DNA from: Bryopsis sp. KO-2023
Taxonomy: Eukaryota > Chlorophyta > Ulvophyceae > Bryopsidales > Bryopsidaceae
Assembly: GCA_030272585.1 (NCBI GenBank)
Contig: BSYQ01000006.1
Coordinates: forward strand, 5,977,001-6,041,000
DNA: 64,000 nt
Direction of reading: 5' to 3'
Below, piece after piece: positions 5,020-41,571 of the stretch (its first letter is position 1; each line of letters opens with the position of its first letter). The notes beneath the pieces are model-generated. The model was not told where the DNA came from. It saw nothing but the letters and a program-made list of their open reading frames with translations, and searched no databases. The position numbers and the translations under genes are program-made.

Positions 5020-5049
5020 TTGGTTTAAGTTAAGATGCTTCCACCACAG

Positions 5050-6680: not shown

Positions 6681-6685
6681 CACTC

Positions 6686-6913: not shown

Positions 6914-7153
6914 TATTCTGATTTAAAGCAAAGGGGAGGCAGTGTAGGTTTCCCTTTCCTATCCCTTCCACGGAATTCCACACCCAAATCTCCAATCTAT
7001 GTCAAACGCAGTTGGTAGCGAGATCAGCGTCGAAAAGATGCAGGCTCAATACTCAAGACTTCACAATCGCTCAAGACAAATTGAATGACTACAGGAAACC
7101 GTTTCTCGGTTTTATCCCACCGACAGTGTGAGACTTCCTAGCCAAACTCGCGG

Positions 7154-8794: not shown

Positions 8795-9065
8795 CTTTCT
8801 TTCTTAGCAATGGTTTTTTTTTGAGCGAAATGGTTTTTTTTGGAGCGTTTTTGGAGTTTCCCCCTTGGTCCTCCTTTTCCCTTTACCACTCCAGCAACTC
8901 TAGGAAAAACTTTTTCCCAAAGCCTTCTTTGATCTTCAATCACCTGTTTAAAAAAACACATGACCTCGACGACGCAACAGATTTTTCGCTTTTCGCGTGA
9001 AAAAGAAGCGAAAGATTAAGAAACGAAAAGAAGGAAAAAAGCCAACTTACCGTTCGCTCTTAGCT

Positions 9066-16451: not shown

Positions 16452-16872
16452 AACAAGGCCAATCAGCCGAGAGGATGATGTGCTGTCCAGGAATGGATAA
16501 GAAGCTCTTGAATCTAACTGTGGGAAAGGGGTTGCCGGTTGCCTTTCGGTCTAATGTAGTTTGTACAACTATGTAAGTTGCTCTCCTGTAGCAAAATGTG
16601 CATGGTCACCCGCATTTAGAACATTCAAACAATACCTGATTTTGCATCTGACTTCTTCCACTCACTACTTTCTCGACTCGAGGGAAGTCCAACCCCAGTT
16701 GGTTTTCCTCAACCAGACGACAAGCCCCACCTTCTCCAGACGTACAGAACATTCTCGGCTGGAAGAATCTCACACGTGTGACGTGCACGTGGGTTTCTGG
16801 CATCCGCTTTTTTTTCTTTCATAATTCCCCTCTTTCGCATCGTTATACACCTTTTTTTCCGCCAATTCCGAA

Positions 16873-17652
16873 ATGCTCGCCCTCCGATCACACACGCAGT
16901 GCATCGCTTCCGTGGTGTCCCCTCTTGGATCTTCGGCCATCAAGCGTTGCTTTCTTTCGAAACCCAGCCGAACGGTTTCCGACAGGAGGGGTTGCAATAT
17001 GGCGGCCAAGGCCTCGCTAGGGATCTGGGTCAAAGGTGATCCCGAGAACAAAGTTCTAGGGGACTGCCCGTTTTCGCACAGGGCGCTGTTGACGATGGAG
17101 GAAAAGAAACTCGAGTACGAGAGGGACTATATCGATTTCGCAAAGAAGCCTGATTGGCTGTTGGAGGTGAATCCGGAGGGCAGCGTTCCGGTATTGAAGG
17201 ATGGCGAAAAATGGGTCGTCGACTCTGGAACGATTGTGGAATACTTGGAAGAGAATTACCCGCTGCCCTCCGTCCCTGCGGACGAGGAGGGGGACCAAGC
17301 CACCGGGGGCGTTTTCAAAGCGTTTCGCGAGTTTCTGTTCAACAAGGAGGATTCGGAAGAGAAAGAAAAGGAAGCCGCGCTCGTCGTTGAGTTGGCCAAA
17401 GTGGATGCTCTGTTGAAGAAAAGAGGGGGGCCTTTTTTGGGGGGCGAAAGTTTCAACGCTGCCGACGCCTCTGTTTTGCCGAAGCTGTACCACATGAAAA
17501 CTGCACTGGGGGAATACAAGAAATGGACCATCCCAGATTCGTTGCCCAATCTGTTGTCGTACATTGCCAAAGCTGCAGAGAGGCCAAGCTGGAAAAACAC
17601 CGATTATGGAACTGACATGATTCTGAAAGGCTGGGGAAAGCATTTCAGTTAA
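16873..17652 (+). CDS. DHAR: Dehydroascorbate reductase, probably organelle-targeted
   Basis: A single uninterrupted frame of 259 codons encodes a GST-like enzyme. It has the DHAR signature LGDCPFSHRALLTMEEKK, where CPFS holds the catalytic Cys, then NPEGSVPVLKDGEKWVVDS (cis-Pro and glutathione-binding segment). The C-terminal helical domain contains the PKLYHMKTALGEYKKW block typical of plant DHARs. The reaction is glutathione-dependent recycling of dehydroascorbate to ascorbate. About 42 residues precede the conserved start of the domain. They are rich in Ser, Arg and Lys with few acidic residues, consistent with a plastid or mitochondrial transit peptide. A second in-frame ATG (MAAKASLG) near 16999 would give a cytosolic form. 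It is compact and intronless, unlike its neighbours, and lies in tandem about 420 bp after SRR1. Confidence 0.95.
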   Translation: MLALRSHTQCIASVVSPLGSSAIKRCFLSKPSRTVSDRRGCNMAAKASLGIWVKGDPENKVLGDCPFSHRALLTMEEKKLEYERDYIDFAKKPDWLLEVNPEGSVPVLKDGEKWVVDSGTIVEYLEENYPLPSVPADEEGDQATGGVFKAFREFLFNKEDSEEKEKEAALVVELAKVDALLKKRGGPFLGGESFNAADASVLPKLYHMKTALGEYKKWTIPDSLPNLLSYIAKAAERPSWKNTDYGTDMILKGWGKHFS

Positions 17653-20475: not shown

Positions 20476-23400
20476 ATGAGCTGGGATCACTACAAGTCAA
20501 AGCGTGACAACGGCGCGCCGCTGTGCGCGCTGCTAATACTGGTGTTGGTGTCCTCTGCGTGGGGACAACAGGCCTGTCCCAACCAACGAGCTGGCCCTTG
20601 TTTCGGAAAAAATGAAGGAGACGCCTGCGAGAACCCTGGCGCAGGATTCTGCGCCTCCAGCGAGTTCTCCGTGTGTGTTTGTGACACAGAGCCCGCCGCT
20701 GCGACCTGTGAGTACCTCAGAAAATAGCCATCTTAGCCTCTTCGGGATAACAGATTCTTACCAATGGCCTTTTCTTGTGGCTCGCTGCATTTGTAGCATC
20801 CGTCAGGCACAGATCGTGGTGGCGCGAAAAGGCGAACTCTTCTAGCCATGAATTCTACCCAAACACGGTGTTGGAAGGGCTACTGAATTATCAGACAGAC
20901 GAGAACTTCACGCTGTTCAACACTGTGGACTGCCCGTTCTGTCCCGAAGCATATCAAAACTGCATCGGATGCACAGGACCCAATCACATGTCAGTACCAG
21001 TTTTTAGGGATGTGGAAGTCTCCCTTTCCTGCCAGGTGTTGACCCCGAAGGGAGTAGCAAGCATTTCTACCAGTGACCTAATCACCAGGCTCAAGACAAT
21101 ATTCAACGTCGAAGAAAATGCACTCAGCGTTTTGATGGAGGACTTGTCGACACCGCCACCTCCTCCCTCGATCCCACTCTGCCCACCTCTGCCCCCTCCA
21201 GCGTAATTTTCTAACTTTGAACACTTGAATTGAAATGGTTTATGTTGATGACATTTCTATGTACACATACCCTGACAAAAAAAACACAAGAATCAGATGG
21301 CTTGGGTAAGATAGCTGAAGCTGCTTGTTTTTAGCTTGGTGTCCAGGAAACCCACGTCGCCGCCACCTCCATGCATAGTGTTAATCCTTTTGACAGATAT
21401 GAGTACCAGACCTCGGTAATAACAGCTTGTGTTGCAAACGCAGTCCCCACGGTCCACCACCACCATTACCTCCCGGACCTCCCCTGCCTCCTACTCCATC
21501 CCCTCCATCGCCACCCCAACCTCCCCTGCCTCCTACTCCATTCCCTCCATCGCCACCCCGACCTCCCCTACCTCCTACTCCATCCCCTCCATCGCCACCC
21601 CGGCCTCCGTTTCCCCCAACTCCGCCCCCTCCATCGCCACCCCGACCTCCGTTTCCCCCAACTCCGGCCCCTCCATCACCACCCCGACCTCCATTTCCGC
21701 CTTATCCATCGCCTCCAAGGTCAGTATCGAATGCCATCCCTATCATGCCATCAAGTTCAAGCATATGGTTGTTTGCGACAAGCACTTCTTGTTACCTTCA
21801 CAGTTACCCTCACGCCTTTCACGAACGCCACAATCGTCAACGCAGATCTGCCCCAGTTATCCACATGTAAAATTACCCTTGTTACGCTTGCAGACAAAGC
21901 TCGATACTCATTGCCCCTGCCCCAGCCCCAGCCCCGAGCATCCCGACAATTTCGCCATCTATTCCACCACCACCTATTCCCTTGCCAGCAACAGCTCCGG
22001 CTGCTCTGTCTCCAGCTCCGACATCTCCATCAGCTCCAGCACCGTTTGAACTGGCTCCGGCGCCCTCATCTCTCCCCCCGCTGCCTTTACCCAGGTAAAC
22101 CAGCGTTCCTGACTAAAGTTTTGAACGCTTTTCCCGTATTTGTTTCTGTTGTGGCAGTCCCCAACAGCAATCCCATGTGAGGAGATGCATCTTTTCTGCC
22201 AATTAAACTTTATGCTATGCTCTTTTTTGAATCCTGTGATGATTGACCTATTTTGTTGTGCATGTCCTTCGTCCAGGGACCTTCCACCACTTCCCGCTCC
22301 CTCAGCCCCAGCTCCATCTCCGAGTCCCCTAGATATATGCTCACGTCCGCTTACGGATCCTAGAAGGCTTATTGAGTACTTGCGCTTATGTGCTCCACGA
22401 CCTGTAACTCTACCATCACCTGCACCATCCCCAGCTCCGGCCGCCCTGGATCCAGCTCCAACATTTCCACCACCTCCAGCACCGTTAGACCTAGCTCCGG
22501 CCCCAGCTCCGGCGCCCTCATCTCTCCCCCCGATTCCACTACCCAGGTCAGTGTGTCCCTGACTCAACTTAAGATCAATCTTCCTGGCAAGAAACATCCA
22601 TTTATACAATATGACCCCCAAAATCAACATACAGTCCCCTACATCAACCCCCTGTGCTGCCACCTTCAATGCCTGCGTTCCACTATCATTTGAGTCCTGT
22701 GATAATTTGACTGTATCCTTATTATTTCTTCTTCATTCAGAGACCTTCCCCTTCCAACGCCCTCAGCCCCAGCCCCAGCTCCGGCCGACCAGTCGCCACC
22801 TCCAACATTTCCACCGCCTCCAGCGCCGTTTGTGGTAGCTCCGACCCCAGCTCCAAGCACCCCACCACCACCTGTTCCCTCCCCAGCCCCAGCTCCGGCG
22901 GACCCAGCGCCACCTCCAACATTTCCACCACCACCTCTAGCGCCGTTTGTGCTAGCTCCGGCCCCAGCTCCGGCGCCCTCGTCTCTCCCCCCGATTCCAT
23001 TACCCAGGTCACCCACGTTCAGAACCTGACTCAATTTTGGAGAATTTCCCAATGTTATCTGAATCCTGTGAGGATTAACTTGTTTAGTGATGTGTGGCCT
23101 CCGTTCAGTGACGTCCCACCCCCACCTTCAACAACGCCAGCCCCGGCCCCAGCCCCGGCCCCAGCCCCCAGCCCCCCACCACCATCTGTTCCCTCCCCAG
23201 CCCCAGCGCCGACGGACCCAGCGCCACCTCCAACATTTCCACCACCTCCAGCGCCGTTTGTGCTAGCTCCGGCCCCAGCTCCAACCACCCCACCACCACC
23301 TGTTTCCTCCCCAGCCCCAGCCCCGGCGGACCCAGCGCCACCTCCAACATTTCCACCACCTCCAGCCCCGGCCCCAGCTCCAGCTCCAACCACCCCACCC

Positions 23401-26400
23401 CCATCTGTTCCCTCCCCAGCCCCAGCGCCGACGGACCCAGCGCCACCTCCAACATTTCCACCACCTCCAGCGCCGCTTGTGCTAGCTCCGGCCCCAGCTC
23501 CAACCACCCCACCACCACCTGTTTCCTCCCCAGCCCCAGCCCCGGCGGACCCAGCGCCACCTCCAACATTTCCACCACCTCCAACCCCGGCCCCAGCTCC
23601 AGCTCCAGCTCCAACCACCCCACCCCCACCTGTTCCCTCCCCAGCCCCAGCCCCGGCGGACCCAGCGCCACCTCCAACATTTCCACCACCTCCAGCCCCG
23701 GCCCCACCTCCAGCTCCAGCTCCAACCACCCCACCCCCATCTGTTCCCTCCCCAGCCCCAGCACCGGTGGACCGGGCGCCACCTCCAACATTTCCACCAT
23801 CCCCACCGCCGTTTGAGCTGGCTCCGGCCCCAGCTCCGGAGCCCTCGTCCCTCCCCCCGATTCCATTACCCAGGTCACCCACGTTCGAAACCTGACTCAA
23901 TTTTGGAGACTTTCCCAATATCATCTGAATCTTGTGAGGATTGACTTGTTTAGTGATGTGTGGCCTTCGTTCAGTGACGTCCCACCCCCACCTTCACCAA
24001 CGCCAGCCCCGGCCCCAGCTCCAGCTCCAGCTCCAACCACCCCACCACCACCTATTCCCTCGCCAGCCCCAGCTCCGGCCAACCGGTCGCCACCTCCAAC
24101 ATTTCCACCGCCTCCAGCGCCGTTTGTGGTAGCTCCGACCCCAGCTCCAAGCACCCCACCTCCATCACCATTTATTCCACCACCACCTATTCCCTCCCCG
24201 TCCCCAGCGCCGGCGGATCTAGCGCCACCTCCAACATTTCCACCTTCCGCACCGCCGTTTGAGCTAGCTCCGGCCCCGGCTCCAGCGCCCTCGTCCCTGC
24301 CCCCGATTCCGTTACCCAGGTCACCCACGTTCAAAACCTAACTCAATTTTGGAAAATTTCCCAATATTTTCTGAATCCTGTGAGAATTAACTTGTTTAGT
24401 GATGTGTGGCCTCCGTTCAGTGACGTCCCACCCCCACCTTCAACAACGCCAGCCCCGGCCCCGGCCCCAGCCCCAGCTCCAAGCACCCCACCACCAACTG
24501 TTCCCTCCCCAGTCCCAGCTCCGGTCCACCTCGCGCCACCTCCAACATTTCCACCATCCCCACCGCCGTTTGAGCTGGCTCCGGCCCCAGCTCCGGAGCC
24601 CTCGTCCCTCCCCCCAATTCCGTTACCCAGGTCAGTACATCCGTGACTCAACTTCCAAAATTTTACCAATGTCTTCTGAATTATGTGAGGATGAACGTTT
24701 TTCGTGGTGTATGACCTTCGCTCAGAAGCTTTCCACCACCCCCAGTCCCAGCTCCAGCTCCAAGCACCCCACCACCATCCCCATTCATTCCACCACCACC
24801 TATTCCCTCGCCAGCCCCAACTCTGGCCAACCGGTCGCCACCTCCAATATTTCCACCTTCCCCACCGCCGTTTGAGCTAGCTCCAGCCCCGGCTCCGGCG
24901 CCCTCATCTCTCCCCCCAATTCCACAACCCAGGTCAGTGTCCTGACTGAGCTTTCGAACATATCCCAGGGTACAACAGTCTACATCAACCCCATTTATTC
25001 CATATTCAATACCTGCACTCTGCTATCATGTGAATCCTTTGATTGATATTTTTGGTCGTGGTGGTTGTTTGTCAGATACCTTCCACCACTATCATCCCCC
25101 TCCGTCCCAGGCCCTGCCCCAGGCCCAAGCACGTCGGCGCCTTCTCAAATATTTCCACCACCTCCAGCGCCGTTTGAGCCAGCTGACGCCCCCTCATCTC
25201 TGACCTCGTTTCCTCCCCCTAGGTCAGATGCGTTCTTGACTCAAAATTGAAGATTTTCCCTTTTACCAGGGCACCACCCTTCAGTGCCGACATACAAGTT
25301 GAATAACAACAATAACAAATATTATTAAAAAGGCTTAGCTTGACAATGCATTCGTTTCTACTGCGGAAGTTCCCCCCGGGTGGGCCCACCAGTCCCATAT
25401 ATTCTGCCACCTCCAAAATTCGCACTGTTCTTTGATGTGAATTCTATGAGATGAACATGTTTCGTCGTGTATGTTCTTTGTTCAGAGACCTTCCACCGCT
25501 TCCAGCGGCGGCTCCAAGCATCGCCCCATCATCGCCATTCATTCCACCACCTCCAATTCCCTCGCCAGCCCCAGCTCCGACCGCCTGGGCGCCATCTCCA
25601 ACATTTCCTCCACCTCCAGCACCTTTTGTGATAGCTCCGACCCCAGCTCCGGCGCCCTCATCTCTCCCCCCGATTCCACTACCCAGGTCAGTTGCGACAT
25701 GTTGATGATTTTGGTGCCGCTTTTGTTTTTTCTCAGCCCCCGCTCCAGTCCATTACTTTGAAGGTCGAATTCGACCCTCTTCAACACTAGAAATTATTTC
25801 TGTATGAATAATGTTGTAAGAGAGGTCAGAGAACTCGTTCCCACAACAGCAAATTTGATGTTGCATTTTAGCCCTTCTCCACCTGTTCCAAACCCCCCAG
25901 TTCCGACCCCCCCGGTTCCTCTTCCACCAGTTCCACCTGCACCTCTTCCTCCTTCACCTGTTCCTCCTTCACCTGTTCCTCCTTCACCTGTTCCACCCCC
26001 ACCACGTCGTCCAACAAGGTAAGCTCTACAGCTGTGATTGCTCGTCAGTTTGGGAATCCAATGAAAAATATTGAAATGGAAAGTGGTGGTACCAGCCCTC
26101 CGCCGCCTCCACTGCCATCGCCGCCGTCTCCACCCAGGTGAGTTGCCGTGATAATACACAACTTTTAATGCATCTGCCTCGGTATTCGTTTTCCATCGTG
26201 TATCAGAAACCTCCACCTCTGCTTTCGTGCAAGTACATCCCTTTCTTAAGCGGATATGTATCTGAATACCTTACACAAATATATCTCGTTGGAGTTTGGT
26301 TGCCTGTATCTTCCTGGTTCTTATTCTGTTAAAGGTCAAAGGCAAATTTCCCAGACTTGCCTTATGTCTGGCGTATGCAAAAAAAATATTTCAACTTCCT

Positions 26401-29400
26401 CTGCATTTCCTTTTTTTTGGTAAAGCAATGGCAACACGAAGCTGGTTCAAGGTTGTAGGGATTATGAATTTGAAATAAGGGGTATCTGGTGTTCTTTTCT
26501 TAGCCCTCCACCTCCACCACCACCTCCCGATTGTTTACTTGCACCTCTACCATCGTCATCAACGCTGATATCCATGGATACATCTGTCTTGTGGACAGAT
26601 GATACAGTTGGCGATGGATTAAAAGGGCTAAACGTGGCTCAAGTTGTCGAAGATATGGTGAGTCATTTCTCATGTGTTCACAATACAAGACGCGCGTGTA
26701 TCTTGGTTGATCCAGCTTCTTACAAATTAGACCATGTTGGTGGCGAGAGCAATATCGTATTTACAGGAGATTGATGAGATCCTGGGGACGATAGAAAAAA
26801 CGTGCTCGAGATCAGCAAGAGTTCAGATTCAATTCAGCAACATTGACGGAGGGAATGACCCACATATCGATGCGCTCATGCAAGCCGTATCAGCTGGTCA
26901 AATTGCTGCTGGAGGATGGGAAGCTGAGATTCCTCTACCTCTCCCGGAAGAAGAGTCATTTGGTAGGGACTTGCTGGTACCAAATGACCAAGTCATTTGG
27001 CAAGTCATTTTTTTTTTTATGTTGAAAAAATTTCTATGGTTGGTTTTGAACAATTGGTGGCTGTTCTCTTGTCAATCGATGGATGCTAATGTTTCTTGCT
27101 TTTTCCTGATCAGGAATGTTTACAATCCCCGTCAACTTGAAACCATACTCACAGGATTTGTGCGTTGCGTTTAATGGGGTAAGCCTTGTTTCGATAAGCG
27201 TTTTCTCTTTGAAGTTGAAATTCCATACAAATTCTTAGGTTCGAAATCTTTCTTGAAGGGAACAAATTGTATCGAAGACAATGTCGGGATGTGTCTTTAC
27301 CCCGATGTCACGAATCTTCAAAATGCGTGCTTTGCGCTGAATGAGGTAAACGATTCGATACCAATAACGTTTCTTTTCAAATGTTTCACTCTCCTGTGTT
27401 TTCTTTCACTTTCCTCCACCCGTAATCCAACGCCCAAAGTACTTGTATTTGCTGTTTTTCAGACGACATGCACGATGTCGAGACTGTGCACCCTTGCCAA
27501 TATTCCGGACATTGCCGAAATCACTACAGCGCACTCAATGTTCAACAATGGTATCATCTCGAAACAGCGCCATGCGAGCATGGTGGAAGAGTTGCAAAAA
27601 AATGCAACGGAGTTCTGCGTGCCAAAGGAGTTTGCCGATTGTGCGGAAAACGCCCTGCCTCAAGGTATTCCACCATTCAAATGCATTTGAATGTAGATAT
27701 ATACTCGGTTGCTTTATTCCTTCACACCTGATCTTAACACTCGTCATTCGTGTTTGGCACAGGAACGCAGTGCCCCGATTTTTGCCCCTACGTTTCCTTG
27801 CCAATAACGGATTGGAGACCGTTGTGCGATGGCAATGCAGACACTTGCTGCAAGTACGGTACAAACTTGGAGACGTGTTCAGAAGCGCAGCTGGTGAGTC
27901 TGGGGAAAAGCCATAAACTTATCTGATGTCTCGTTTTCATTGTAAACACTATCACCACGTTTAAACTAAACTGCCACAGGAGGATGGTTACTGCGTCTGG
28001 TCGGAAGAAGACAGAGTGTGCTCGCTGGCTAATATGGAATGCAATGGTGAAACCGCACGAGTGACGGAGCTTCATGGACAGTGCCAGACGACGGGATTCT
28101 GTGCTGATCTCGCTAATATGAGAAGTCAAAACAACACCGCCATGTGCGCCAAGGATGGATCTGGTCCAGGTGTGGAGGACTATCTTGTGCTGCTTGCAAA
28201 GCTTGGAATGCAATGCAGAGAGAAAAAAAAATTCCCTTGTCGCCTTGACAATGAGGTCAACAATGTGGTGCATAGGTTTGGACATGTGCTCTGGAGCCGA
28301 CGATCAAAGTCAAGAGTGCTTCTTTTGCAAATTGTCTGTGGACACCCTGATGAGGCAGGTAGAGCTTGAGACGACGGTGAGCACCCAGTGCAACCAGGAG
28401 TCTGACGTCCCAGGAGTCTGCCAGGAGCAAGCCAGGATTATTGCTCACCACGACTCCTTCTGCAAAGCCAACGAAAAGCCCTTCAAGTCGGCGCTCTTCT
28501 CTTACTCGTCGGAAACAAGGAAGAATGCAACCGCGGCGTGTTTGGATCACGGTGAATTGGAATCTCAGATGTCAGTTTTTGTTCCTGTTGTGGCTTGGCA
28601 GCTTGTTAACTTTTGCTCTTGTTTGCGAGCAGAGCTTTGTCTCTCTGAGGACAATGGGGGATGCTCGATTTGTGAAGACACTCTTGCGATGGCTTTCGCA
28701 ACAACAGGCGGGAACATGACAGCTTTGGTTCTTCTCAACAATGTCGCAGAGCTGTGTTTCTGGGCTGTATCCACGCACCACCCACTCATGGATTTGGTGT
28801 ATGAGCCTGAAGACGAAATCTGTTTCAAGTCGGAGGGGTGCAGCACAATTGTGAGGAAGGATAGCACGGGAAAGATTGTATTGTCTTCTCCCTCGCTTCA
28901 TACTTTTTCAAATGATGTACTTTTTGTGGCTGGTAGGATGGCTGCATTCAGGAACCATTATGCAGCCCGGCCGACAACCACCCAGCGGCAGACGTTTGCG
29001 CGTTGCAGCACGAACAGGTTCTATGACCATTCAAGTCGAATACACCTTGCATGGATTCCTTTTGAGGGGAAATAGCGTGTCTCAATTTTTTTTGTCGTGC
29101 ACCCCAGGCGTCCTGCAACCTCCAGAGCGACTGTGTGTTCGTGTTGGAAAAGGCAGAGAACGGCACGGAAACAACTTGTGAGAGGGTTGGAGTTGCGATC
29201 TTGACGTACGGTCTCGAGTACGTCAAGAATGCGACGAACGCGGCATACGCGATCGGGGGGTGTTCGCTCGAGTGTGGTAAGTTCGGTGTAGTCAGTTTTA
29301 TCTTCGAGCTTTGATACTCTGCTTGTAGCTCGTAGCAGCACCAAATTGCTTGCCTACTTCACAGGTGAGGGATGTCAGCGCTGTGATGAGTCGATCCAGG

Positions 29401-32400
29401 ACATATCAGTTCTAGTAGCTGGTGTGGAGGGGACCGACCTCAGTGCAGCCGAAGCGGTCGAGACCTCGTGCAAGAACCTCCCAGACGTCCTGCCTCAATC
29501 CAGAAAGGTATTTGTGGCAAAAGCGACAGAGTCTTATTTACTTCTTTCTTGCTCGCGATCGCGTAAAACAAACCTGACGACTCTCTGTGCTGCAGGGTCG
29601 TTGCTTGTCCAAGAGCAGGGCCAAGTGCACGGAAGCAAGGTCTGAAAAGACCTGTGGAGAGTTTGAGTGCGTGTACAGGTAGGCGGACTAAGAGCCACAC
29701 TAGACACCAATCCATTTGTTGTGGCAGGGTCGTTTAGCTACATGTGCTCGTAGTTCCTATTGTCGCCACCATACCAACGCCGAATTCTGCGATTCAATCG
29801 GGATGGAGAGCGAAAGCGAAATGGGAGCCACGTGCAGAGCACAACAGACTTGTTCCTCGTCCTTGTCGGATTTGGTGAGCCCGACACCGCTGGAGGCTTG
29901 TGGAACCAAAGGTGAGGTTGTCAGAGGGATTTCCAACCGAAGTCGGGGCGATTCGATGGCTCTTTGACACAATTGTTTCTTTCCACAGAAATCAACATGT
30001 GCCCAGGAGACCTGTGCGATGCTTGCGTGGCGAAGATAAAGCAGCTTCAAACTAGAGCACCTGAGGACTCCATATGTCCGCTGAGTGGCGAGGTATGTGC
30101 AGTTCCTGGAATATTCTCTTCTTCTTGTTTCCCCGTTCTGATGCACTGATCTTTGTGGGTAGATATCCCAAGAGCACGCCTGTATCGGCACACTCGTGGA
30201 ACTGGAGCTTCTTCAAGCGTCTTGTGGCGACTTGAAGGCGTTTTTCAACTCTCTATTGAATTCATCCTACGTTGATGCATGCAGTCAGAGAGGTAAATAA
30301 TACAGTCGAGTTGTCTGTGTGTGTTATGTGTTGCACTTCATTCGCCACCTGAAAGTTCTTATTCATTCTACAGGTACCATAGAAGAGGAGAGTGGCGATT
30401 GTGCATCAGCGTCTCGCATGATTCATGGTCTGTTACAGAGTGGCCACTTTGCCAACAGCACCCAGGGAGTAGCTGAGATATGCTTAGGAGTTGACGGCGA
30501 CATGGCAGACTTGGATAAAATGTGCGTCATGTCCGAAGGCACATTGCGGGAACAATTGGGTTATTGTGGAAAAAATAGAAAAAGAAGATAAGACGTACTG
30601 AAAAATGCCAAGAGGAGTTGAAGCACCCATCCTCTTGGCAATATCAATTTGGCCATTTCAAAAGAAACATGTTCCTTGAAATTTTCGATGTGGTGACAGT
30701 GATTCCAAGTATGGCCACTTGTATTGCGATCCAAGAGGCAACCAATGCTGCGAGAGCATTGGGGACGATCAGACTGGAATTACTCCAGCAGAGTCAACAT
30801 GTGTGGACAAAGGCTATTGCGAGTACGAGTCCCAGTGCTTCTTAGAGCAAGACGGATGCACTGAGGCGTTTGAGAAATCGCACCTTTTGTACGGACTCGG
30901 AGTATGTCCAACATCGTGCACTTTCGTTCCAAGTTTAGAGCCTGCAGCTCGACTGACGGTAGGATATGCAAAAGACAGATATGATCACGGATGCAGCGTG
31001 AAAAATTGAGAACGAAGCACCATAGCCAAGTATAATACAATATACTGAGTATTGTGAACACACTACAGGAACAGAATGGATGGGGAATATGCGTGGATGA
31101 AACAGGAAGAGAAGCGTGCGAAACAACGAAAGATTGTACCAGCACTAAAGGATGCTCTGAGCGCCCGGTATGTACAAATTTTCGAAAGGTCGCAGTGCTT
31201 GGAACTATGATCGATGAAATTTGGATGAAATTTTGTGTCCTGCGACCGCAGTCTTGTACAGTAGAAAAAGGAAAAGACTTCAGATGCAACGGAGACGACG
31301 ATGTGTGCTGCGTATGGAGCACCTCAGAAACCTTTACATTGTCTCAAGAAAAGGAATGCAGCGCGAAAGGAGAAAGCTGCGGGGTGCACAAGAACTGTGT
31401 GCGAATGTTAGACCCCTGCAACACCAAGCAGCAACAATGGGACTGCATCAACGACAATCGATGCGAATGGACGCCTTACAAAGACAAATGTGCGATCATG
31501 CTCTAGTTTCGAGGCTTTGGTGTGGTTGGCTAGGATGGGTCGTGACTGATTGTGTTTCTGGAACAGATAACCCTGTCTCAGGGAAATGCAGCAGTGTGGA
31601 TGACGTGTGCCGAGACTTGAGCCAGTCATTGTGTAGCGATTTTACACTTGATGGTGAGAAAGTATGCGCCCTTGTCGATCGCTGTGAAACGTCTTGCTCT
31701 ACAAATGATCCATGCTGCGGTTTGGACGCTGAGACGTGCGGGGACACGAAGGGATGCCTTGTCAAAGACCAATGCTCACCCCGCCAAGATTACTGTAGAT
31801 TCTTGTAAGCCAGCCGCGTTTCTTCACGTTTTCAATTGGCTAGAAGTGCTCGTTGGATGTGGATTGACTGGAGGGTTGGACATGTGCTTTTCAGTGATGA
31901 TGCAAAGACCTGCGCGACTAGGGACACTTGCATGTGGGAAGAGGAAGTTCAACAATGTTCAACGAGGGGATCTGAGTGCGCTGCGTCGCTGTCACCATTT
32001 GAGTGCAACGTACAAACTCTGAACGAAAGACCGCTTTGCAGAGTGGAAGCCACCTGTGTGGATGAGTGCGCTCCTTGTGGGCAGTGCATAGACTTCATGA
32101 CAAAGGCTGCAATCGATATCAGAAATGAAACCGACGCAGGCGTGATAGCTCGGGTGGGTACATAAAAGGGTCCCTTTTGTTGGCTTGTCGTCCCTGTTGC
32201 TTGGATCTAACGTTGTATCATTCGACATCAGGCGATCACCACAGCTTGCGACATGGCTGGCTTCGGTCTGCTTCAATGCAAGGCGCTGGAGGAGGACATA
32301 CTTTTCAGCAATCAAGGATCCTTAGGAAAAAGACCTGCTGCCATTTGCACGAAACTGAGCCAGTGCACTTCAGAATGCAAAATTGGGGTCGAAGGGAGCA

Positions 32401-35400
32401 AGGCCGCTCTCGATCTGTGCACTGCGAATGGTCTTTCGACAGGGAACGCTGTCGTTTCCGGCACATCCAGTGAAGGATTGTGCAACAGCAATGCAGAATG
32501 CAATTCAGAGTTTTGCAGCTTCAAGGATCCAGCGAGCGTATGCTCTTGTGACCCTGAAACGGGAAATGACAAGTGAGTACACGAAACAGCACAAAGCCAG
32601 CCATTCTCACACCATACAAAAATTCGTACACCACGTGGGAAAAGTATGACGACTCTTTTCCAGGTGCAAGCCGGCAGGGAGCTGTGAACCGTTCTGTGAT
32701 CAATACGCAACACAAATCCAGAGTTTCAACAGCCGCTACGATATTTGCGCTACGTTGGACGACTGCGCCGCTGGATTTACTTGTCAAACCACCAACCAGT
32801 GTCTGGAGATGAGCTGTTCGGAGGCCACAGGTTCGCTCGTGCTCTTTCTCAAATCAATGTCACAAGGGAAATGAACGTTTGGAACTATAAAACACAAAAG
32901 TGCTACCCAGGAAAAAAGATTGCTTTTGAAAACTGGAATTAGAAATTTAAAACAAAGTCGCTGAGATGAATTGAAAAAAGGTCGCACCAATGTTCGAACA
33001 ACTGTCAGCTAAGGTCATTTACTGATCAGGCTTAAAGGTGGGCACTTGCAGCGGATTCTGCGTTCCTGCGGAGAGGACAATCATAGCGGCGAAGTTCAGC
33101 GAAAAAGGAGATGAGATTGAAGTCGAGCTAAATTCCCCAGCGAAACCAGTGAAGCTGGCATGTTCTGAGATATTTGCTACTGACACCGTGAAGCTATTGG
33201 GACCTGCGTATTGTTCCGCACATGGCAAGAAACTCATTATATCAATGACGGGAAATGTCACCATAAATGTGGCAGATGAAATAACTATCCTTGGGGGCCA
33301 AACAAAATTGTCTGATGTTTTGGGTGTCCCCTTCACTGGATCTGGGACTGTGGAGGGTTGCATATCATGCACACCCAAAGCGAAAGTCGTTTATCCCAGG
33401 ACAATTTCTCAAGGGTGTCCAGGATCTGAAGAGGCGGTTACCTTCGATGGAACATACTCTGTTGGCACCGGGGGACGTGCTCTGGGCTACAGTTGGCATC
33501 TCGATCCTTCGGATTGCTTCCGGTCGTCGACCCAAGGCTCTTTTGGGAGTTTTTCAGGCTGTCAACATTTGACGGACGCGATCAATGGACAAAGGTGGGC
33601 ACATCTTAAGAGATGTTGTGTTTTATGTTACAATGTCTCGCCTGTTGGTTGTGGTTACCAGACCAAATTATTACAGTTTGGTAATGCTCCTAGCGTTTGT
33701 TCGTGTGCAGGAATAATGGAATGATAAAGGTGGAAGCTTCAACAGTCTCAGCGCTTGCGGCGGGCGATTACAAGTTTTTCTTTACTGCCACGAATTTCCT
33801 GGCCAAGAACACCACAATAGAAGTGATCATCACGAAGGCACCAAATCCCGTTCCAGTCGTGGGTATTCCGGGTGGTTCTGATCTCCGGTTCTTCCCATCC
33901 AGAGGAATCAAGGTGGAGGCGTATGCTTTCGCAAATTTTGTTTGTGACGGGTACACAATGGAATACCTGTGGACATCGATCACCAATTGGACTGCCCTGC
34001 CTTCTGAAGGCTTTAAGCGCAAAGACTTGATTCTATCCGCACCTGTCCCAGCGTTGCCAGAGAACGACTATGGATTGCTGCTCACGGCGTATCTCAAAGA
34101 CGAGAACGGAACAACATTGGGAACAACTTCTACGAAGGTCACCCTGTCCGCACAGGGATCCCCACTGATAGCGAGAATTGATGGCCCCTACGGAAATGTA
34201 GTGGTGGAAAACGAGATTTGCTTGGATGCATCCGGCTCCTTCGACCCAGAAGATCCGCAAGGCATCCGCCCAATTGCCGTTGAATGGATTTGCTCCCTAG
34301 AAGCAGTCGGTGGAAAACCATGCTTCAGTGGCAAGGAACAACCAGTCGTAGAGGGTGGCAGATTGTGCGTTCCACGAAGCCTGTTGACTGTAGGGTCACG
34401 ATACGTCTACACCGCCCAAATCTCGAAAGTGGACGCTGGCCAGGCAGGCTCGGTGACCAGGAGCGCCTCTGCTACGACGACATTCGTGCCTTTGGCACCG
34501 GATAGTGTCATTCCCACTGGAGCCGCAAAGTTGCTATGTGGTTCTGAGAAATGCCCATCACTGCTGAGCCCGGGAGAGGATGTGAATCTGATGGTGGTGG
34601 TCGACCCTGAACATGTCAACTCTACGAGTATAGAGTGGGCATGTGACGGGATTGACAATTTGGAAGAAGCTGCTTGGTGGGGCACCAACTCCACCATATT
34701 GGTGATTAAACCAAATACGTTCGAGGGAGGAACCGAAGCCAAGTGTACTGCATTTTTGTCGAGCACTGAGACGACGACAAAGGGGGAGGCGGAGATATTG
34801 TTCAAAATGAGTGCGCCTCCAATATGTGTATCCGCCACCCAGGAATGCTTGTTGGTTGCCCAGACTTCTGCGAGTTCCAAGTATCCTGAAGCGGTTTTCA
34901 CAGCCAGGGTCCAGGATGTCACAAGCACCGACTCGGACGTGACATTTATATTCGGTGAAATTGTCGACGACGTCTTCGTAACATATAAGAAAGGGAGTGA
35001 GACCCAGTACGAATTTGAAGGACTGGAGGAAGGGGAGCATACGATAGTCGTTCAGTGCCACGACTGGTATGGGTCCTCCATTGAACTCAAAAAGAATATT
35101 ACCATTGAGGCCCCGGAAGAAAATTTTACGATCGGGGAAAGTGCTTTTGCCAGTGCGAAAGCTGGTGCCGAACTTGGTCAGCGCTGCCAGGATCCTATAA
35201 AGGTGTTAACAGCGGCTAGAAGAGGAGTGGCACTTTTAAAGAGAGCGGAAAGTGGATCAACGCTAAATGAAACAGAAGGGAAAACACTGGCAAAATCTTT
35301 CGCCACCGCAGCAATGTCCCAGGTCCCAACAAACGTGGATGAAGTCGACCCTGACTCGTTTTTGGTGAGTCTTGGAGTTTTTAGCGACATTTCGCAAAGT

Positions 35401-37073
35401 GGATATGCAGAGGCGGATCTTGTGGAAGACATTATTGATGCAGCGACAACGGGGCTTACAGCCATGGAGATCAATGACAAGCCTTGCCCTGGGGATGAGT
35501 GTGGGCTGAACGTTCTCAACATTATCGCATCCACAATTAACAAACGCAAAGGTAGAAATGGAAGAAACCCCAACCGGTTCTACGCGAAATTCAAAAAAGC
35601 CGTCAGGAAGTCGACGAAGCTCGCCTGCGGGGGGATGCGACCAGGAAGTCCGATCCAAACGGTGTCGTCTTCTGCCGATGTCGACGCAATTACCACTGCG
35701 TGTGGGAGGGAAAGACTCAGAGGACTGGATGGAGGAAAAATGAGAGCCGGGCACAGAAAATCACAAAAGATTAGAAGGGGTCTCAAAGCGTTTCTGACGG
35801 AGCAACCATTGGTTGCATTCCCTCCCAACTTTTCGTCGGCCTGTGGCGAATTCTGTGAAAATGATGAGACAAACATTTTGCTTGAGTTCTATAAGGACAC
35901 GTCTGCACACTCGGGCGTCATTGGCCAGCCGATATCGAATCCAGACGCTTCTGAGGTTGAAATCGTATCTGGAATACTGGACATCCAATTGCCAGACCAC
36001 AAGGGAGGGAACCAGCTCTGCCCAACTGATGCCTGTGGCCCCATGGTTGTCAGCATTCCTGTAGACACAGCTAAGTTTGAGACTGACAAAGAGACAGTTT
36101 GCCTGGGAATAGAGGATGGAAGGCTTGTCGGGGAAAATGGAAACGGAGGATTTTCATTCGTGGAATATGACCCGAGCGCAGGAATAGCAGTCTGCAACTC
36201 AACAAGGTTGGGTGAAGTCTTCGTTACCCAGTTCAGACTGCCCCCACCGGCTGCTTCCCCTCCGCCGCCTCCAAACGCACTTGGAGTAAGACGCCCACCT
36301 CCACCTGGGGCCATTGCATCCGGTCCTCCGCCGCCAGTTACGGCCCGTAACAATTTCATTTTGAAATCGGTAAGTCGTCCGTCATATTTTTAAGCCGTAT
36401 AAAGTACTACCAAAGTTTTTTTGGCTCCGTTTCCTCGGCGCCTTGAGACATTCTGAGGTGTGTGGGTTTATTTGAACAGGTGAAAGCCACCCTGACATTC
36501 AATAGGAAATATGACATTTTCAAGAACGATGTGCACCTTCTCCCCGAACTCAAAAAGAAGATTGTGGACTACATCGGAAGCTCAGAGGATTACGTTCGCG
36601 TGTTCAATCTCCGCCCTGGTGACCGCGATGGTATTTCTATTGATATCGAGGTGGACTTTCCATTCTCAGTTCCAGATGAGGAAATACTACAGTTTGGCTG
36701 GATCCTGCAAACGCAGCCCGAGGCTATACTAGGCTTAACCTTTTTGGACGTCTATGGCGTCCCCGTTGTGAAATTTTCGTCCAAAGGTAAGCCACGAGTC
36801 GGTTTTGGGACTTGTATTCCACAGCGAACTGAGAAAAAGAGGAGTTGTTCTTGCTGCTACCTCAGTTCTCTGTTGTTTTGAGTTCGGAAGGCCATGTCTT
36901 CAGGTGCAACCGAGCCATCCCCAAAACCCAAGACGGGAGCGATCGTTGGGGGAGTTTTTGGTGCGCTGGCCTTCCTGGTAATCGTGACTGTGGTTGCGGT
37001 GTGGGTGATCAGGAGGTACAAGAAGAAGGTTCGGGAAGACTTGCATGAGAAACAGCCGTTCAACATGGTTTGA
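20476..37073 (+). CDS. Giant modular surface glycoprotein: Pro-rich array, Cys-rich region, REJ-like ectodomain, one TM
   Basis: The start is the ATG at 20476, where MSWDHYKSKRD leads into a clear signal peptide (hydrophobic LCALLILVLVSSAWG). Exon 1 (20476-20707) and exon 2 (20797-21202) encode a Cys-containing head. Thirteen proline-rich exons follow (21347-26137). Phase-consistent exons continue at 26504-26657, 26767-26962, 27114-27178, 27259-27345, 27463-27664, 27763-27893 and 27980 onward into a long Cys-rich part. The REJ-like block is at about 33038-33593 plus a 2.66-kb exon at 33711-36369. It closes with exons 36480-36786 and 36904-37073. The final exon holds a single transmembrane helix (GAIVGGVFGALAFLVIVTVV), a basic stop-transfer (RRYKKKVRED) and a short tail. 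I read it as one type I membrane protein of several thousand residues, probably for adhesion or sensing at the cell surface. It could be two genes, but no stop or start interrupts the chain where I can follow it. Confidence 0.72.
20797..21202 (+). other. N-terminal Cys-containing head of the giant gene (exon 2)
   Basis: Exon 2 encodes a non-repetitive segment with paired cysteines (DCPFCPEAYQNCIGCTG), a beta-like stretch (DVEVSLSCQVLTPKG) and the first Pro run (PPPPPSIPLCPPLPPPA). The layout of a globular head before a Pro-rich shaft resembles algal hydroxyproline-rich glycoproteins such as pherophorins, but I did not find a full pherophorin domain. Confidence 0.6.
21347..26137 (+). repeat. 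Array of 13 phase-matched proline-rich exons
   Basis: Exons: 21347-21415, 21444-21719, 21894-22094, 22277-22546, 22741-23007, 23109-23873, 23975-24319, 24421-24630, 24726-24932, 25076-25222, 25486-25686, 25872-26018 and 26096-26137. Every length is a multiple of three, and every exon begins and ends after the second base of a codon (mostly AG|N for Arg or Ser). Most begin with a DLPPLP- or DVPPPP-like start and end in PAPSSLPPIPLPR. The second exon of the array instead carries PPSPPRPP-type repeats. Introns around 23.0-24.7 kb are also alike (TGAATCCTGTGAGGATT ... GATGTGTGGCC), showing that whole intron-exon units were duplicated. The encoded shaft is about 1,050 residues of APAP, PPP and SPP motifs, typical of hydroxyproline O-glycosylated wall proteins. 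Confidence 0.85.
26504..33000 (+). other. Cysteine-rich region of the giant gene, many small exons
   Basis: After a last PPPPPPP exon (26504-26657) the protein becomes non-repetitive and Cys-rich. Clear blocks include NCIEDNVGMCLYPDVTN, CPDFCPYVSLPITDWRPLC, CADLANMRSQNNTAMCAKDG, CCESIGDDQTGITPAESTC, NDPCCGLDAETCGDTKGC and CAPCGQCIDFMTKAA. Spacing of paired and vicinal Cys suggests disulfide-bonded modules, possibly degenerate repeats of one unit. Exon boundaries after 28.2 kb were only partly resolved. One junction that keeps the frame is GATCACG|GTGAAT at 28551 to the acceptor before 28633. No named Cys-rich family was recognised. Confidence 0.6.
33038..36369 (+). other. REJ/polycystin-1-like ectodomain of the giant gene
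   Basis: The exon at about 33038-33593 has the VGTCSGFCVP start and alternating beta-strand pattern that precede REJ modules in algal and polycystin-1-type proteins. The large exon 33711-36369 contains PKD/REJ-type strands (ICLDASGSFDPEDPQGIRPI, IAVEWICSLEAVGG, SRYVYTAQISKVDAG). An alpha-helical stretch follows (IKVLTAARRGVALLKRAESG ... TGLTAMEIND), and then a C-terminal Cys pair with FVEYDPSAGIAVCNSTRLGE that resembles the end of a GAIN domain. The exon ends in a Pro-rich linker (PPPAASPPPPPNA ... RRPPPPGAIASGPPPP). REJ modules are known in polycystin-1 and sea urchin sperm receptors. The assignment here is by pattern, not by search. Confidence 0.7.
36480..37073 (+). other. SEA-like segment, transmembrane helix and cytoplasmic tail
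   Basis: Exon 36480-36786 (starts VKATLTFNRKYDIF, includes LPELKKKIVDYIGSSEDYV and FNLRPGD) has the alternating strand-helix-strand pattern of a SEA-like fold. It is a juxtamembrane module in many surface glycoproteins. Exon 36904-37073 encodes the Ser/Pro linker, the only transmembrane helix and about 20 cytoplasmic residues. The tail is too short for the PLAT or channel parts of polycystins, so this is not a polycystin channel. Confidence 0.6.
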
Positions 37074-38321: not shown

Positions 38322-39282
38322 ATGAGAAGCCTTACTAGACAATCTTCCAGGGGGCAAGGACTGATGCAAGCTCGTCCCTACCCCACTTTCCAGCAAACAT
38401 GCGTTCCGCTGGTTCCAACAAGAGCCATGCGTCTACCTTGCACAAAAAGCGGGGCATTCAGTGCTCACCCAGACGCACTCCGGCGTCGGCGCGAGGCAGA
38501 ATTGAGGTCTGTGTTTGGGTTTCTTACTTCGCTTGAAACGCTGCCAGGCTCTGGGGCTATTATTATGACACAAGTATCATGCTGTCAACAGGCAGAAGAC
38601 AAGGATGAGAGAACTTGCAGAGCTCTCCAGGAGTCTGACATGCGGGTGAGCTCTTGTGCCTTGCACGTTTTGTTGGGTTGGCACTTGCTCGGACGACGAA
38701 ACATGTGAAGTCGTATATACCGCTAAGCTGCTTTATGTGTTTTGTTCTTTTTTTTTCATTTGTCTCTTCTCTTTCAGAGGAGCCGATGGTCCTGCAAATA
38801 TCATCGAGGTCGGATCTGTCTCCGAATTGGACCGACGCGTTTCAAACTCGTTGGGGGGAGACACCCTGGTCTATTTTAAGACCCGTTCATGCGAGTCGTG
38901 TCTGAGGCTCTTGCCCAACCTTACGCTGGTTGCGGGCAAGAACCCCGGCGTCACGTTCCTGATTGTTGATGTCCACGGAGAGGATGTCACAAGAGTACGT
39001 CGAGAGAGGAATATAACCAAAATACCTTTCTTTGAACTGCACAGAGAAGGGAGTATCGTCTCCAAAGGCTCATGGAACGATATTAGTATGTTGAAGGCTT
39101 TGGGCAACCGTGGAGTCGGCCCCCAATGCACCCTGTGGGAGCCACAGTCGAAAGCGCGCTCTTTGGGGGGCTGGCAAGGAGTGGTGCTTTCGATTGATGA
39201 AAAAAGGATGAGGCGAGACCAGGGGAGAGGGGAAAGGAACAGGGAACGGAGGGAAAGCAGAGATACTGTCGAAAGACAGTGA
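38322..39282 (+). CDS. Thioredoxin-like protein, at least two exons
   Basis: The exon beginning near 38778 encodes a thioredoxin-fold domain: GDTLVYFKTRSCESCLRLLP carries a CxxC (CESC) active site after the central strand, then VTFLIVDVHGEDVTRVR, and NITKIPFFELHREGS supplies the cis-proline Ile-Pro. The frame runs on through a basic tail (GRGERNRERRESRD) to a TGA at 39280. An upstream exon with ATG at 38322 has a Ser/Arg-rich start that could be a transit peptide and ends at a good CGG|GTGAGC donor. However, its phase does not join the TTTCAG acceptor at 38777, so the true first exon or junction differs. Thioredoxin-fold proteins reduce or isomerise disulfides. The specific partner is unknown. 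Confidence 0.6.
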
Positions 39283-39289
39283 AAAATAT

Positions 39290-41139
39290 TGTAATGAGAT
39301 TATATGTAATCCAAACAGCGTTTGAGTGAGAGAAAAAAGGAATGCCACGGGCTGTGTTCGGGCGACAGGTTTTATACGATCAGAACAAACCCGGTATGTG
39401 ACCTGATAAGGAGAAGTCAGAAAAGGACCAATGGAAATGTTGCTCAAGCTTTTTAAAAGCTTGATAACACTGGTCACTGTTGTGAAGACCTTCCAAAAGC
39501 ATCGATACTACGACTTCGACAGGACCCCTGAAATTCGACTTGATACTGCGTTCGCTACAATGAACGCCAAGCGTCTTTCACGATAGCACAAACGAAAAGG
39601 GACCGGTGAGCCCAAACGCACCGCACTGTGTTTCAACAATGCAGCAACAGGGGCACATAAAAACGATGTCGCTCTTTTTCAAAACCATGAAGAAGAATCG
39701 GATGCACTCACTCAACTTCCTCGTAACCAATATCCCCACACTCTCCTGCTGCTGCTCCACTATCCGCACTGTTGACCAACAGCAGGGGTCTATCTCGACA
39801 CAACACCGTTAGCAAAGTCCCGAGGAACAAGGAACGTCAATCTAAAAACCAATTCTCTCCATGCATTCTGCCTTGACAATGCCGCTACAGGCACACAGCC
39901 AAAAGATGTCAATTCAGACATAACCCCTTTTTTTTTTTCCAGTTTCATTGCGATCTATCGATACATAAATCTCCAACACATAGTTACACAGACCAATTTC
40001 CGCGGACGAACTCATCATCGTTTTCGTGGGGACTATCGTGAGCCGGTGCGTCGCCTATTTTTCGCTTTGAGAAGCTGCGGTTTCAGAAAGGATCGTAAAC
40101 ATGACAGGATTTCTTTATGCGTGGGATGTGCACGAGGAGAAGCGGTGGCATCGACCGGGAAAAGCGCCTCTTGCAGGAAACCAAGAAATCAAGAAAGAAA
40201 ACTTGTAAAGAAACTGGTAACTTGTCTGTGAACAGGGTCGATTCTGGTGTAGATTGCTCGCATCGCAGACATCGTCGCATCAGCGCCTTGATGTCCTCAA
40301 AAAAGCGGTTTTTTTTACCCAACATAGTTTGATGTTTTTTTGTTTGTCTACTCCACTGGGGAGGATGAAAAAAACAAGATACAATCGCAGATAAATGCGT
40401 CGTCTGATGTATTTCCACCGTTGATAGAAACAACGCAATAGCAAGCGCGTGCGCGTCAGCGCCCTCTGACTTCCCGGAATGAATTTTCTCACCAGGGTTT
40501 TTTTGAGAGCTCTACATAGTTTTCTAACAAAAATCTCCCCTTGCTCCGCACAGCAACTACCCAAGTGAGTAACACCTTTGCGCAATACTAAACAAAAATC
40601 CAAATCAGACCATACCACAACAAAAAAAGAAGACTGTTCACTCTAAAAGCATCCTAGTGTGAGACCCAAGTGAGCTTTTTACATGGGAACAGTGTGTGTA
40701 TGAATCAATCAATAATTACAACCCACAGCAAAAACCCCCAAACCCAGAGCCATCGCCCTCCATGATGCTGGATACTAGTTTGTTTTGTTGAGTGTCTTGC
40801 TGATGTCTTGTGGGTTTTGGGACACCTGCTCGGGTGTCCAACTGTCACCATGGTGCACCTTCACCTCTTTAACAGTATCAAAGGATCAATTGCTAATCTT
40901 GGAAATTGTTTCATATACGTCCAGAACAAGCCAGCAACACTAACTCAAACCAATAAAAAACCCAGCACACCTGCCGACGGCAAACGATGGAACATATTTG
41001 GAACATATTTGCGCCTGAATGAATTGGGTAAGCTCTTCACAGACTCCTGAATTTTGTTCTAACCGTCTGGAAAAAGTCTAAAAGCATTAACTGAACTTAA
41101 GCAAAAAGCTGAGAGTTGGTTGGGGAGGCAGGAACAGAA
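39290..41139. other. Intergenic, no gene supported
   Basis: Open frames are short on both strands and lack recognisable motifs. There are T homopolymers near 39930 and 40305. The end near 41.1 kb is the AP-2 sigma upstream region. Confidence 0.45.
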
Positions 41140-41571
41140 ATGATTCGCTTCCTTCTTTTCCAAAACACGTCGGGATGCACCCGAATATCGAAGTATTACA
41201 CCCCCTTGAGCGACAACGAGAAAGTCAAAACCGAGTACGAAGTTTTCAAGGTTCTTCGCAACCGTCCAGAAAACACCCACGCGAGCTTCGTGGAGTTTGG
41301 GGTGGATCAGCTCATATACAAAAAGTACGGGAGCGTCTATGTGGTGATGTGCTGCGATTCGATGTGCAACGAGCTTTGCATGCTGGAGGCGCTGCATTTG
41401 ATGCTGGAAACGATCAATGAATTCTTTTCCAACCACCTGTGTGAATTGGACCTCATATTTGGGTTTCACAAGATCTACTTGATGCTCGATGAATTCATCC
41501 TGGGGGGGGAAATTGTGGAGACCAGCAAAAGAGTCATGCTCGACCGCTTGAAAGAATTGGACGAAATGTAA
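41140..41571 (+). CDS. AP2S1: AP-2 clathrin adaptor complex, sigma subunit
   Basis: A single open exon of 143 codons starts MIRFLLFQNTSGCTRISKYY and contains the small-adaptin longin fold landmarks: KTEYEVFKVLRNRPENTHAS, the ELDLIFGFHKIYLMLDEFIL block, and a GGEIVETSKR tail. Length (143 versus about 142) and the VVMCCDSMCNELCMLEALH segment match AP-2 sigma rather than AP-1 sigma (which ends longer) or AP-3 sigma. The subunit sits in the AP-2 core and binds dileucine sorting signals during clathrin-mediated endocytosis. The ATG at 41140 is the conserved family start; the frame upstream of it is not homologous. It is intronless, like DHAR. Confidence 0.96.
   Translation: MIRFLLFQNTSGCTRISKYYTPLSDNEKVKTEYEVFKVLRNRPENTHASFVEFGVDQLIYKKYGSVYVVMCCDSMCNELCMLEALHLMLETINEFFSNHLCELDLIFGFHKIYLMLDEFILGGEIVETSKRVMLDRLKELDEM

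Follow-up and report, generated by a model that had tools for sequence, protein, structure and literature searches.

A giant gene on the plus strand

The window, that is, the whole 64,000-nucleotide stretch of Bryopsis sp. KO-2023 DNA that was analysed (C6:5977001-6041000, in a host genome searched over 91,088,769 bases in 28 contigs), contains on its plus strand a giant gene that a splice-aware Viterbi model reads from an ATG at 20476 to a TGA at 37073, with ~40 exons encoding ~3,860 aa. The model combined codon and splice-site scores, and exons conserved in paralogs served for its training. With its start left free, the splice chain itself chose the ATG at 20476 and ended at the TGA at 37073 with a score of 1019; for ten other combinations of stretch and strand in the window, used as controls (five partly overlapping stretches on both strands), the scores lay at 82-162, and the antisense of the giant-gene stretch reached 385. 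The chain bears out the initial annotation, which had placed a series of domains in one orientation over 16.6 kb. Note that because the training of the codon model partly overlaps its target, in that this gene and its paralogs were included, the splice score is support for the chain and not proof of it. When the shaft codons were omitted from the model, the start and end were identical (score 694, 42 exons) and several exon borders within the proline-rich shaft moved, so that these borders are less sure than the presence of the shaft; poor-scoring splice sites also exist in the shaft, for example at the intron between exons 2 and 3. The first model had 38 exons and 3,926 aa, and removal by hand of two in-frame introns (27346-27462 and 28552-28632) gave the present one of 40 exons and 3,860 aa.

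In the modelled protein a signal peptide and a knob are followed by a head (from residue 79), the shaft (195-1261), and a post-shaft domain with a Cys-rich stalk (from 1262). A saposin-like domain begins at residue 2426, the last exon before the REJ exon at 2628, and the REJ exon at 2817; the end strand of a GAIN-like block lies at 3649, a SEA-like domain begins at 3703, and a membrane helix begins at 3816, the protein ending at 3860. Around the giant gene, the window holds a plus-strand frame for glutathione S-transferase upstream of it (16825-17649), a short-chain dehydrogenase exon on the minus strand (12835-13347), a weak thioredoxin-like frame (38650-39279), and an exon of a clathrin adaptor small chain (41113-41568; PF01217, 1e-34). 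Light-harvesting genes are numerous in the host genome, with 107 exon matches to PF00504. One LHCII protein, outside the point where two frames were joined to read it, is nearly identical to Bry-Lhcb1 (8hlv) and matches 9jzr_d (Lhcb-d) equally well, and the Codium-type protein 7wlm scores lower, so that by sequence the source is most probably a Bryopsis.

Single exons bridge the parts of the gene

There is very probably one gene in the stretch 20476-37073: the head is joined to the shaft, and the shaft to the stalk, within single exons, and paralogs keep the exon series. In the window copy the head and the start of the shaft share the exon at 20797-21202, and the end of the shaft and the post-shaft domain share the exon at 26504-26657. 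Bridging exons of both kinds are also present in the paralogs C14b, C14d, C14e, C14f, and C14g, and in the paralog C16a a single exon (8370-8931 in its own group coordinates) carries the head together with an entire short shaft. Downstream of the shaft, exon-by-exon tblastn matched the stalk and REJ exons in identical order in seven of seven paralogs, and the SEA-like exon in five of the seven at that threshold; for C16a and C16c the gene models supplied the SEA-like and helix exons. In the paralog C10a the REJ domain, GAIN-like block, linker, SEA-like domain, and helix form one open frame of 1,064 aa, and in C10b the SEA-like domain and helix sit in the next open frame.

Two adjoining genes, one for a secreted proline-rich protein and one for a REJ protein, could have been misread as one, given that the gene structure is known from DNA alone, that the algorithm can force a splice chain across gaps, and that part of the shaft splice sites are weak. 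We rejected this two-gene reading as highly improbable. The junctions are bridged by single exons, with the shaft and post-shaft domain joined in one exon in the window and in five C14 copies and the head and whole shaft joined in one exon in C16a, and the exon series is kept in seven paralogs. The single gene proposed at the outset thus stands, and the worry voiced with it, of a gene break at 26.1-33.0 kb, is answered by the paralogs with the same exon series.

A proline-rich shaft of variable length and motif

The shaft of the window protein begins in exon 2 (20797-21202), in which a Cys-containing head runs into it, continues through 12 exons that are wholly shaft (21444-26137, all phase 2-2 in the model), and ends in exon 15 (26504-26657), where the post-shaft domain starts. 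Including its ends in exons 2 and 15 it comprises 1,067 aa, of which 524 (49%) are Pro, close to the figure of about 1,050 residues in the initial annotation. It is rich in AP, SP, and TP with contiguous Pro runs, and contains AP/TP-rich repeat modules, 94 [AST]P[AST]P motifs, and nine SP3+ motifs; the longest Pro run is eight, and parts of the shaft show tandem duplication at the DNA level. The shaft is thus of the type of hydroxyproline-rich glycoproteins (HRGPs), being Pro-rich with S/A/T-P glycomotifs, as had been proposed for it.

Shafts were linked to a head or stalk in seven of the ten loci with an intact REJ exon (the window, C16a, C14b, C14d, C14e, C14f, and C14g) and range from 67 to 1,067 aa. 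The shafts of C14b, C14d, C14e, and C14g are 627-648 aa long with 74-76% Pro, and contain 0-2 [AST]P[AST]P motifs and 66-70 SP3+ motifs; that of C16a is 67 aa by border definition and 107 by sliding window. (The C14f model reads part of the shaft outside the Pro-rich frame, which is nevertheless open there.) No model of C16c has a linked shaft, though Pro-rich open frames occur at group coordinates 4837-6213 on contig C16, ~6 kb upstream of the first stalk exon with a match. In C10a and C10b no shaft was found in the ~8 kb read upstream of the REJ exon, a stretch into which the stalk frames extend far, and a shaft could lie beyond it. Because three of the ten intact loci yielded no linked shaft, the shaft may not be common to the family.

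Isolated and contiguous hydroxyprolines receive different sugars, and the predicted sugar type therefore differs between the window and C14 shafts: by this rule the window shaft would carry mostly arabinogalactan and the C14 shafts mostly arabinosides. At the 0.31 nm per residue derived from the figures for the rod of Chlamydomonas MST3 (429 residues, 133 nm; PMC11015965), the window shaft would form a rod of ~330 nm.

Knob, head, and Cys-rich stalk

Exon 1 (20476-20707), the start of which is the ATG found by the free-start chain, encodes a signal peptide (hydropathy peak 1.71 from residue 16) and a Cys-rich knob with no Pfam match up to E 5. The head is 24-28% identical in five paralogs, and a Pfam search of it gave neither a lectin nor any other known binding domain. 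For a pherophorin-type head we likewise found no support: the head has no Pfam match of this kind, and a genome search with PF12499 (DUF3707), which we take to be the pherophorin domain, came back empty, as did its control.

The post-shaft domain and Cys-rich stalk occupy ~22 exons up to the REJ exon (26767-33594), which are supported by exon-by-exon tblastn matches in seven paralogs. From the shaft end to the REJ exon there are 136 Cys in 1,555 aa, no Pfam match better than E 1.5 was obtained for this region, and a 607-aa piece of a paralog stalk had no match in the PDB. Within the stalk, at 32055-32366 (with an intron at 32154-32231 inside), lies a six-Cys domain that the initial annotation had missed: a profile of four family members matches NK-lysin (1nkl) with an E of 1e-7, 1nkl being the sole saposin-type chain among the matches up to E 5. 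The Cys spacing in the window copy is C-x2-C-x27-C-x9-C-x22-C-x5-C, and a saposin-type Cys regular expression fits six of eight models (the window and five C14 copies, not C16a or C16c). The saposin family in Pfam was not matched at E up to 10; the other weak matches there were to Fer4_17 (0.0035) and NinF (0.024), in one member each.

Just one saposin-like domain is supported, further repeats in the stalk having been sought and rejected, and the stalk has in addition a less strong internal similarity, of a different sort (columns 836-1092 against 967-1187, with an hhalign probability of 85). No internal homology among the head, post-shaft, and SEA-like domains was found by hhalign.

The membrane-proximal base

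The REJ exon (33711-36369) encodes a REJ domain, a GAIN-like block, and a short Pro-rich linker. The REJ domain (33949-35121) matches PF02010 with an E of 1.8e-20 (73.4 bits against a cut-off of 25), in agreement with the REJ-like domain of the initial annotation, and all eight aligned family members match above the Pfam cut-off. The PKD domain PF00801 was found in five of the eight at E up to 5 (best 2.8e-6), the window copy not being one of them. AlphaFold2 (AF2) modelled the REJ exon with a mean pLDDT of 68, with 128 of 886 residues under 50, as mostly strands to residue 466, seven helices between 476 and 640, and mostly strands from 648 to 842. Strands, helices, and strands are the order expected of a REJ domain followed by a GAIN domain, and it is from this order of secondary structure that the block at ~35137-36237 may be called GAIN-like. 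In a Foldseek search with the REJ exon model, the best 50 matches listed included tandem Ig, cadherin, and complement chains with query TM-scores of 0.09-0.13; such tandem beta-sandwich matches fit the REJ part and say nothing on GAIN. Neither the REJ exon nor the SEA-like exon had a credible relative in the PDB.

GPS, whose motif is HL[ST], was not recognisable: PF01825 had no match in the genome (where the control was also silent) and was absent among the families listed for the eight members at E up to 5, and at the expected end strand the alignment reads GE[VM][FL]V with no HL[ST]. The polycystin-1-like character proposed for the ectodomain holds for REJ, stands for GAIN as a matter of secondary-structure order, and finds no counterpart in a GPS profile or, in the window copy, in PF00801.

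A SEA-like domain lies next to the membrane (36480-36786). Its identification draws on the alignment and on the AF2 model of the corresponding domain of C16a, which has a pLDDT of 91 and the predicted order strand-helix-strand-strand-helix, its GS motif falling in the turn from the second strand (39-45) to the third (49-55). The SEA fold is beta-alpha-beta-beta-alpha, and G^S[VI]VV occupies the turn that joins strands 2 and 3, so that the C16a prediction has both the fold and the motif. By profile, PF01390 (SEA) was found only in C10b and below the curated cut-off (E 4.9e-4; 20.6 bits against 26.4); it was not among the families listed for the eight aligned members, and a genome-wide search with it was empty, with a silent control. 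FAZ1_cons also matched seven of the eight members, below its cut-off (best E 2.1e-5; 24.8 bits against 27.5). Together, the predicted fold and the C10b match favour the SEA-like segment of the initial annotation. Eight of nine paralogs keep the cleavage-type motif GS[IV][IV]V; the site has this form in seven of the eight aligned members and reads GSVVV in C10a and GSVIA in C10b. In the window copy there is an insertion at this site and GS[IV][IV]V is absent.

The last exon (36904-37073), of which the like is found in seven paralogs, encodes a transmembrane helix (~36936-37010; hydropathy 2.89) and a basic tail of 20 residues, the TGA (37071-37073) standing 20 codons after the helix. This is the one strong C-terminal hydrophobic helix besides the signal peptide. 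Extra helices at model residues 1424 and 1732 were rejected, since these weaker hydropathy peaks were translated introns, and the single membrane pass described earlier is thereby upheld. The window protein has no PLAT match in Pfam and lacks the combination of PLAT, 11 helices, and channel region of the PKD1 family.

Shaft and base together raise the possibility of a wall-to-membrane tether or tension sensor, in which an AP-rich arabinogalactan-type shaft embedded in the wall of the giant coenocyte would pull on the SEA/GAIN-like base. The shaft is of HRGP type and varies both in motif (94 [AST]P[AST]P in the window copy as opposed to 0-2 in C14b, C14d, C14e, and C14g) and in length (67 to 1,067 aa), and animal SEA and GAIN domains are mechanosensitive. 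We nevertheless place this role on the unlikely side, since the window protein has no wall-binding domain in Pfam and its cytoplasmic tail is very short.

A family of REJ genes, with purifying selection on the C14 REJ exons

PF02010 has 13 matches in the host genome, which is a lower bound, and these define at least 12 REJ loci: ten with an intact REJ exon, the window included, and two broken ones (C14h and C14i). The nine intact paralogs (C16a, C16c, C14b, C14d, C14e, C14f, C14g, C10a, and C10b, a count that leaves out the two broken loci and four further places on contig C2) all have the REJ domain, the SEA-like domain, one helix, and a stop. (In the automatic paralog models the first and last exons are unreliable, and only the parts named here were used.) The architecture is thus real and conserved within the host genome. 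The family, the saposin-like domain, and the absence of the SEA motif from the window copy all go beyond what the initial annotation had described.

Among the REJ exons of five C14 copies dN/dS was 0.09-0.15 in ten of ten pairs, and these exons are under purifying selection; in pairs that include the window copy synonymous sites are saturated, so that dN/dS carries no information. The selection on C14 bears on a role in gamete recognition, in which the protein would be an adhesin of the kind that SpREJ1 and the male REJ protein of Ectocarpus are thought to be (gamete or cell recognition). In favour of a gamete adhesin are the REJ domain, the single pass shared with SpREJ1 (PMC1934368), a male-gamete REJ gene in a brown alga (PMC4700764), and the clustering of REJ copies on contig C14. 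The low dN/dS argues against fast-evolving gamete recognition for the C14 copies, and no lectin domain was found in Pfam. On balance we regard a gamete adhesin as quite possible, at somewhat less than an even chance.

Comparison with known rod and REJ proteins

With its REJ ectodomain and one helix the window protein is a single-pass REJ protein, a type already known from SpREJ1, 8, and 9, which are predicted to pass the membrane once (PMC1934368). SpREJ1 (suREJ1, of the PKD1 family) resembles it in its REJ ectodomain and one predicted membrane helix, and is a heavily glycosylated surface protein, as the window protein would be from its shaft motifs; unlike the window protein it has EGF and C-type lectin domains and GPS (PMC1934368). 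The window protein, in which no lectin or EGF domain was found in Pfam, differs in turn by its proline shaft, its Cys-rich stalk, its saposin-like and SEA-like domains, and the lack of a recognisable GPS. Polycystin-1 and PKDREJ share with it the REJ domain and a GAIN-like block before the membrane, and with some family members PF00801; the window protein is without their PLAT domain, 11 helices, channel, and GPS profile match. In Ectocarpus, a male-gamete REJ protein shows signs of positive selection (PMC4700764). As an algal REJ protein Esi0130_0068 of that species is alike, whereas it has six or seven helices, GPS, and channel similarity, and the part of the source consulted mentions no proline shaft in it (PMC4700764).

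Rods on polycystin-type bases are known as well. In MST3 of Chlamydomonas, the axial HRGP of the mastigoneme, a rod of hydroxyprolines is tied to a membrane domain of polycystin type; like the window protein MST3 has a long N-terminal proline rod pointing outward and a membrane base linked to polycystins (PMC11015965). It differs in its 8,572 residues, in a PKD2-like domain that passes the membrane several times, and in a P13/P11(XXP)3 motif repeated 42 times (PMC11015965); the window protein has neither that membrane domain nor those repeats, and instead has a REJ/SEA-like base, one helix, and other repeats. A flagellar-hair protein, axial or anchoring, as the counterpart of MST3, would follow the same plan of a proline rod on a polycystin-type membrane base (PMC11015965). 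PKD_channel has 20 matches in the genome, none of them in one gene with a REJ match, and the one nearest to a REJ copy (C14:1296459-1296836) is convergent with that copy and ~9 kb from its 3' end; any such pair has a chance of ~0.04 in a uniform simulation, so that the placement is only a lead. Such a role is improbable, given that MST3 has a PKD2-like multi-pass domain where the window protein has one helix, that the main text of the MST3 paper contains no word beginning with REJ (PMC11015965), and that the window shaft repeats differ from the MST3 motifs.

Volvocine pherophorins and sexual agglutinins also carry globular heads on hydroxyproline-rich shafts, and are not known to contain REJ. 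In the openly licensed PMC literature we found no description of a rod and a REJ stalk on one helix and no paper with both 'REJ domain' and 'hydroxyproline', and a text search of a review on the extracellular matrix of green algae gave no match for polycystin or Bryopsis (PMC10762512). The initial annotation knew of no described protein with this full order that ends in one helix without a channel. For the full combination this holds in the literature searched; its components have precedents in the one-pass SpREJ1, 8, and 9 (PMC1934368) and in the rod and polycystin-type domain of MST3 (PMC11015965). The novelty, within that literature, is accordingly the proline rod and REJ stalk on a single helix.

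A probable rod-and-anchor protein at the cell surface

Wall-tension sensing or mating adhesion had been suggested for the protein. The reading that we favour, and consider rather probable, is that of a single-pass cell-surface glycoprotein, a rod-and-anchor adhesin or tether that is not itself a channel. Of the narrower roles within it, gamete or cell recognition is a little likelier than a wall-to-membrane tether, and a filament like a flagellar hair is the least likely. It draws on the splice chain with its controls, the bridging exons, the paralog exon series, and the ends of nine of nine paralogs; on purifying selection on the C14 REJ exons, REJ in eight of eight members, the predicted SEA-like fold, and the saposin-like match; and on the precedents of gamete REJ proteins (SpREJ1 and 3, PMC1934368, and that of Ectocarpus) and of the MST3 rod with its membrane tether. 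Counting against it are the head, in which Pfam showed no known binding domain, the three intact loci that gave no linked shaft, and a GAIN assignment drawn from secondary-structure order.

As predicted from the DNA, the protein consists of a secretion signal, a distal knob and head, the shaft, and a Cys stalk with its saposin-like domain, anchored by REJ, GAIN-like, and SEA-like parts next to one helix with a tail of ~20 residues and no channel. If the shaft prolines are hydroxylated and glycosylated, the shaft would become a stiff polyproline-II rod, which would keep the head at a distance from the membrane; there the head may bind a partner such as the coat of another cell or the wall. A pull or binding event would then be relayed along the disulphide stalk to the base made up of the REJ, GAIN-like, and SEA-like parts. 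Most paralogs have the SEA motif, by which the ectodomain could be cut and then held non-covalently or shed; the window copy, without this motif, should stay uncut. No obvious signalling domain would fit into so short a tail, so that a signal, if there is one, would have to go through a partner, for example one of the separate polycystin-type channels of the genome.

A bolder extension, which we offer tentatively and think unlikely, is that the family forms a set of modular surface sensors, with rods of ~20 to 330 nm and a tunable sugar code (arabinogalactan-type in the window copy, extensin-type in C14) on a conserved REJ/GAIN-like/SEA base. SEA autoproteolysis would serve as a force-release joint in most members, those without the motif would be permanent tethers, and polycystin-type ectodomains would do mechanics in a cell of the plant lineage without a channel of their own. 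Two themes that are usually kept separate meet in the protein: rods of hydroxyproline, as in the walls and cilia of algae, and the REJ ectodomain known from polycystin-1 and sperm receptors. Were these inferences true, a walled giant cell could carry polycystin-like stalks without channels, the family would offer a natural series of rods, varied in sugar code and length, on a common base, and its members would be candidates by which siphonous green algae recognise gametes or sense the wall.

Broken and divergent copies

Both broken copies retain SEA-like and helix pieces. The REJ exon of C14h is split by an insert resembling an LTR retrotransposon, which contains two long open frames and whose end stretch is repeated (C14:1572001-1584000, joined coordinates 2395-7784); the matches at C14:1574015 and C14:1580093 were accordingly counted as a single locus. 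C14i (C14:1834616) is a frame-broken REJ paralog at 1097-5276 of C14:1832001-1838000. At the four places on contig C2 (4492904, 4955528, 5933389, and 6218028) the last pre-REJ exon was matched with no REJ profile match, and these are possibly a divergent or REJ-less branch of the family.
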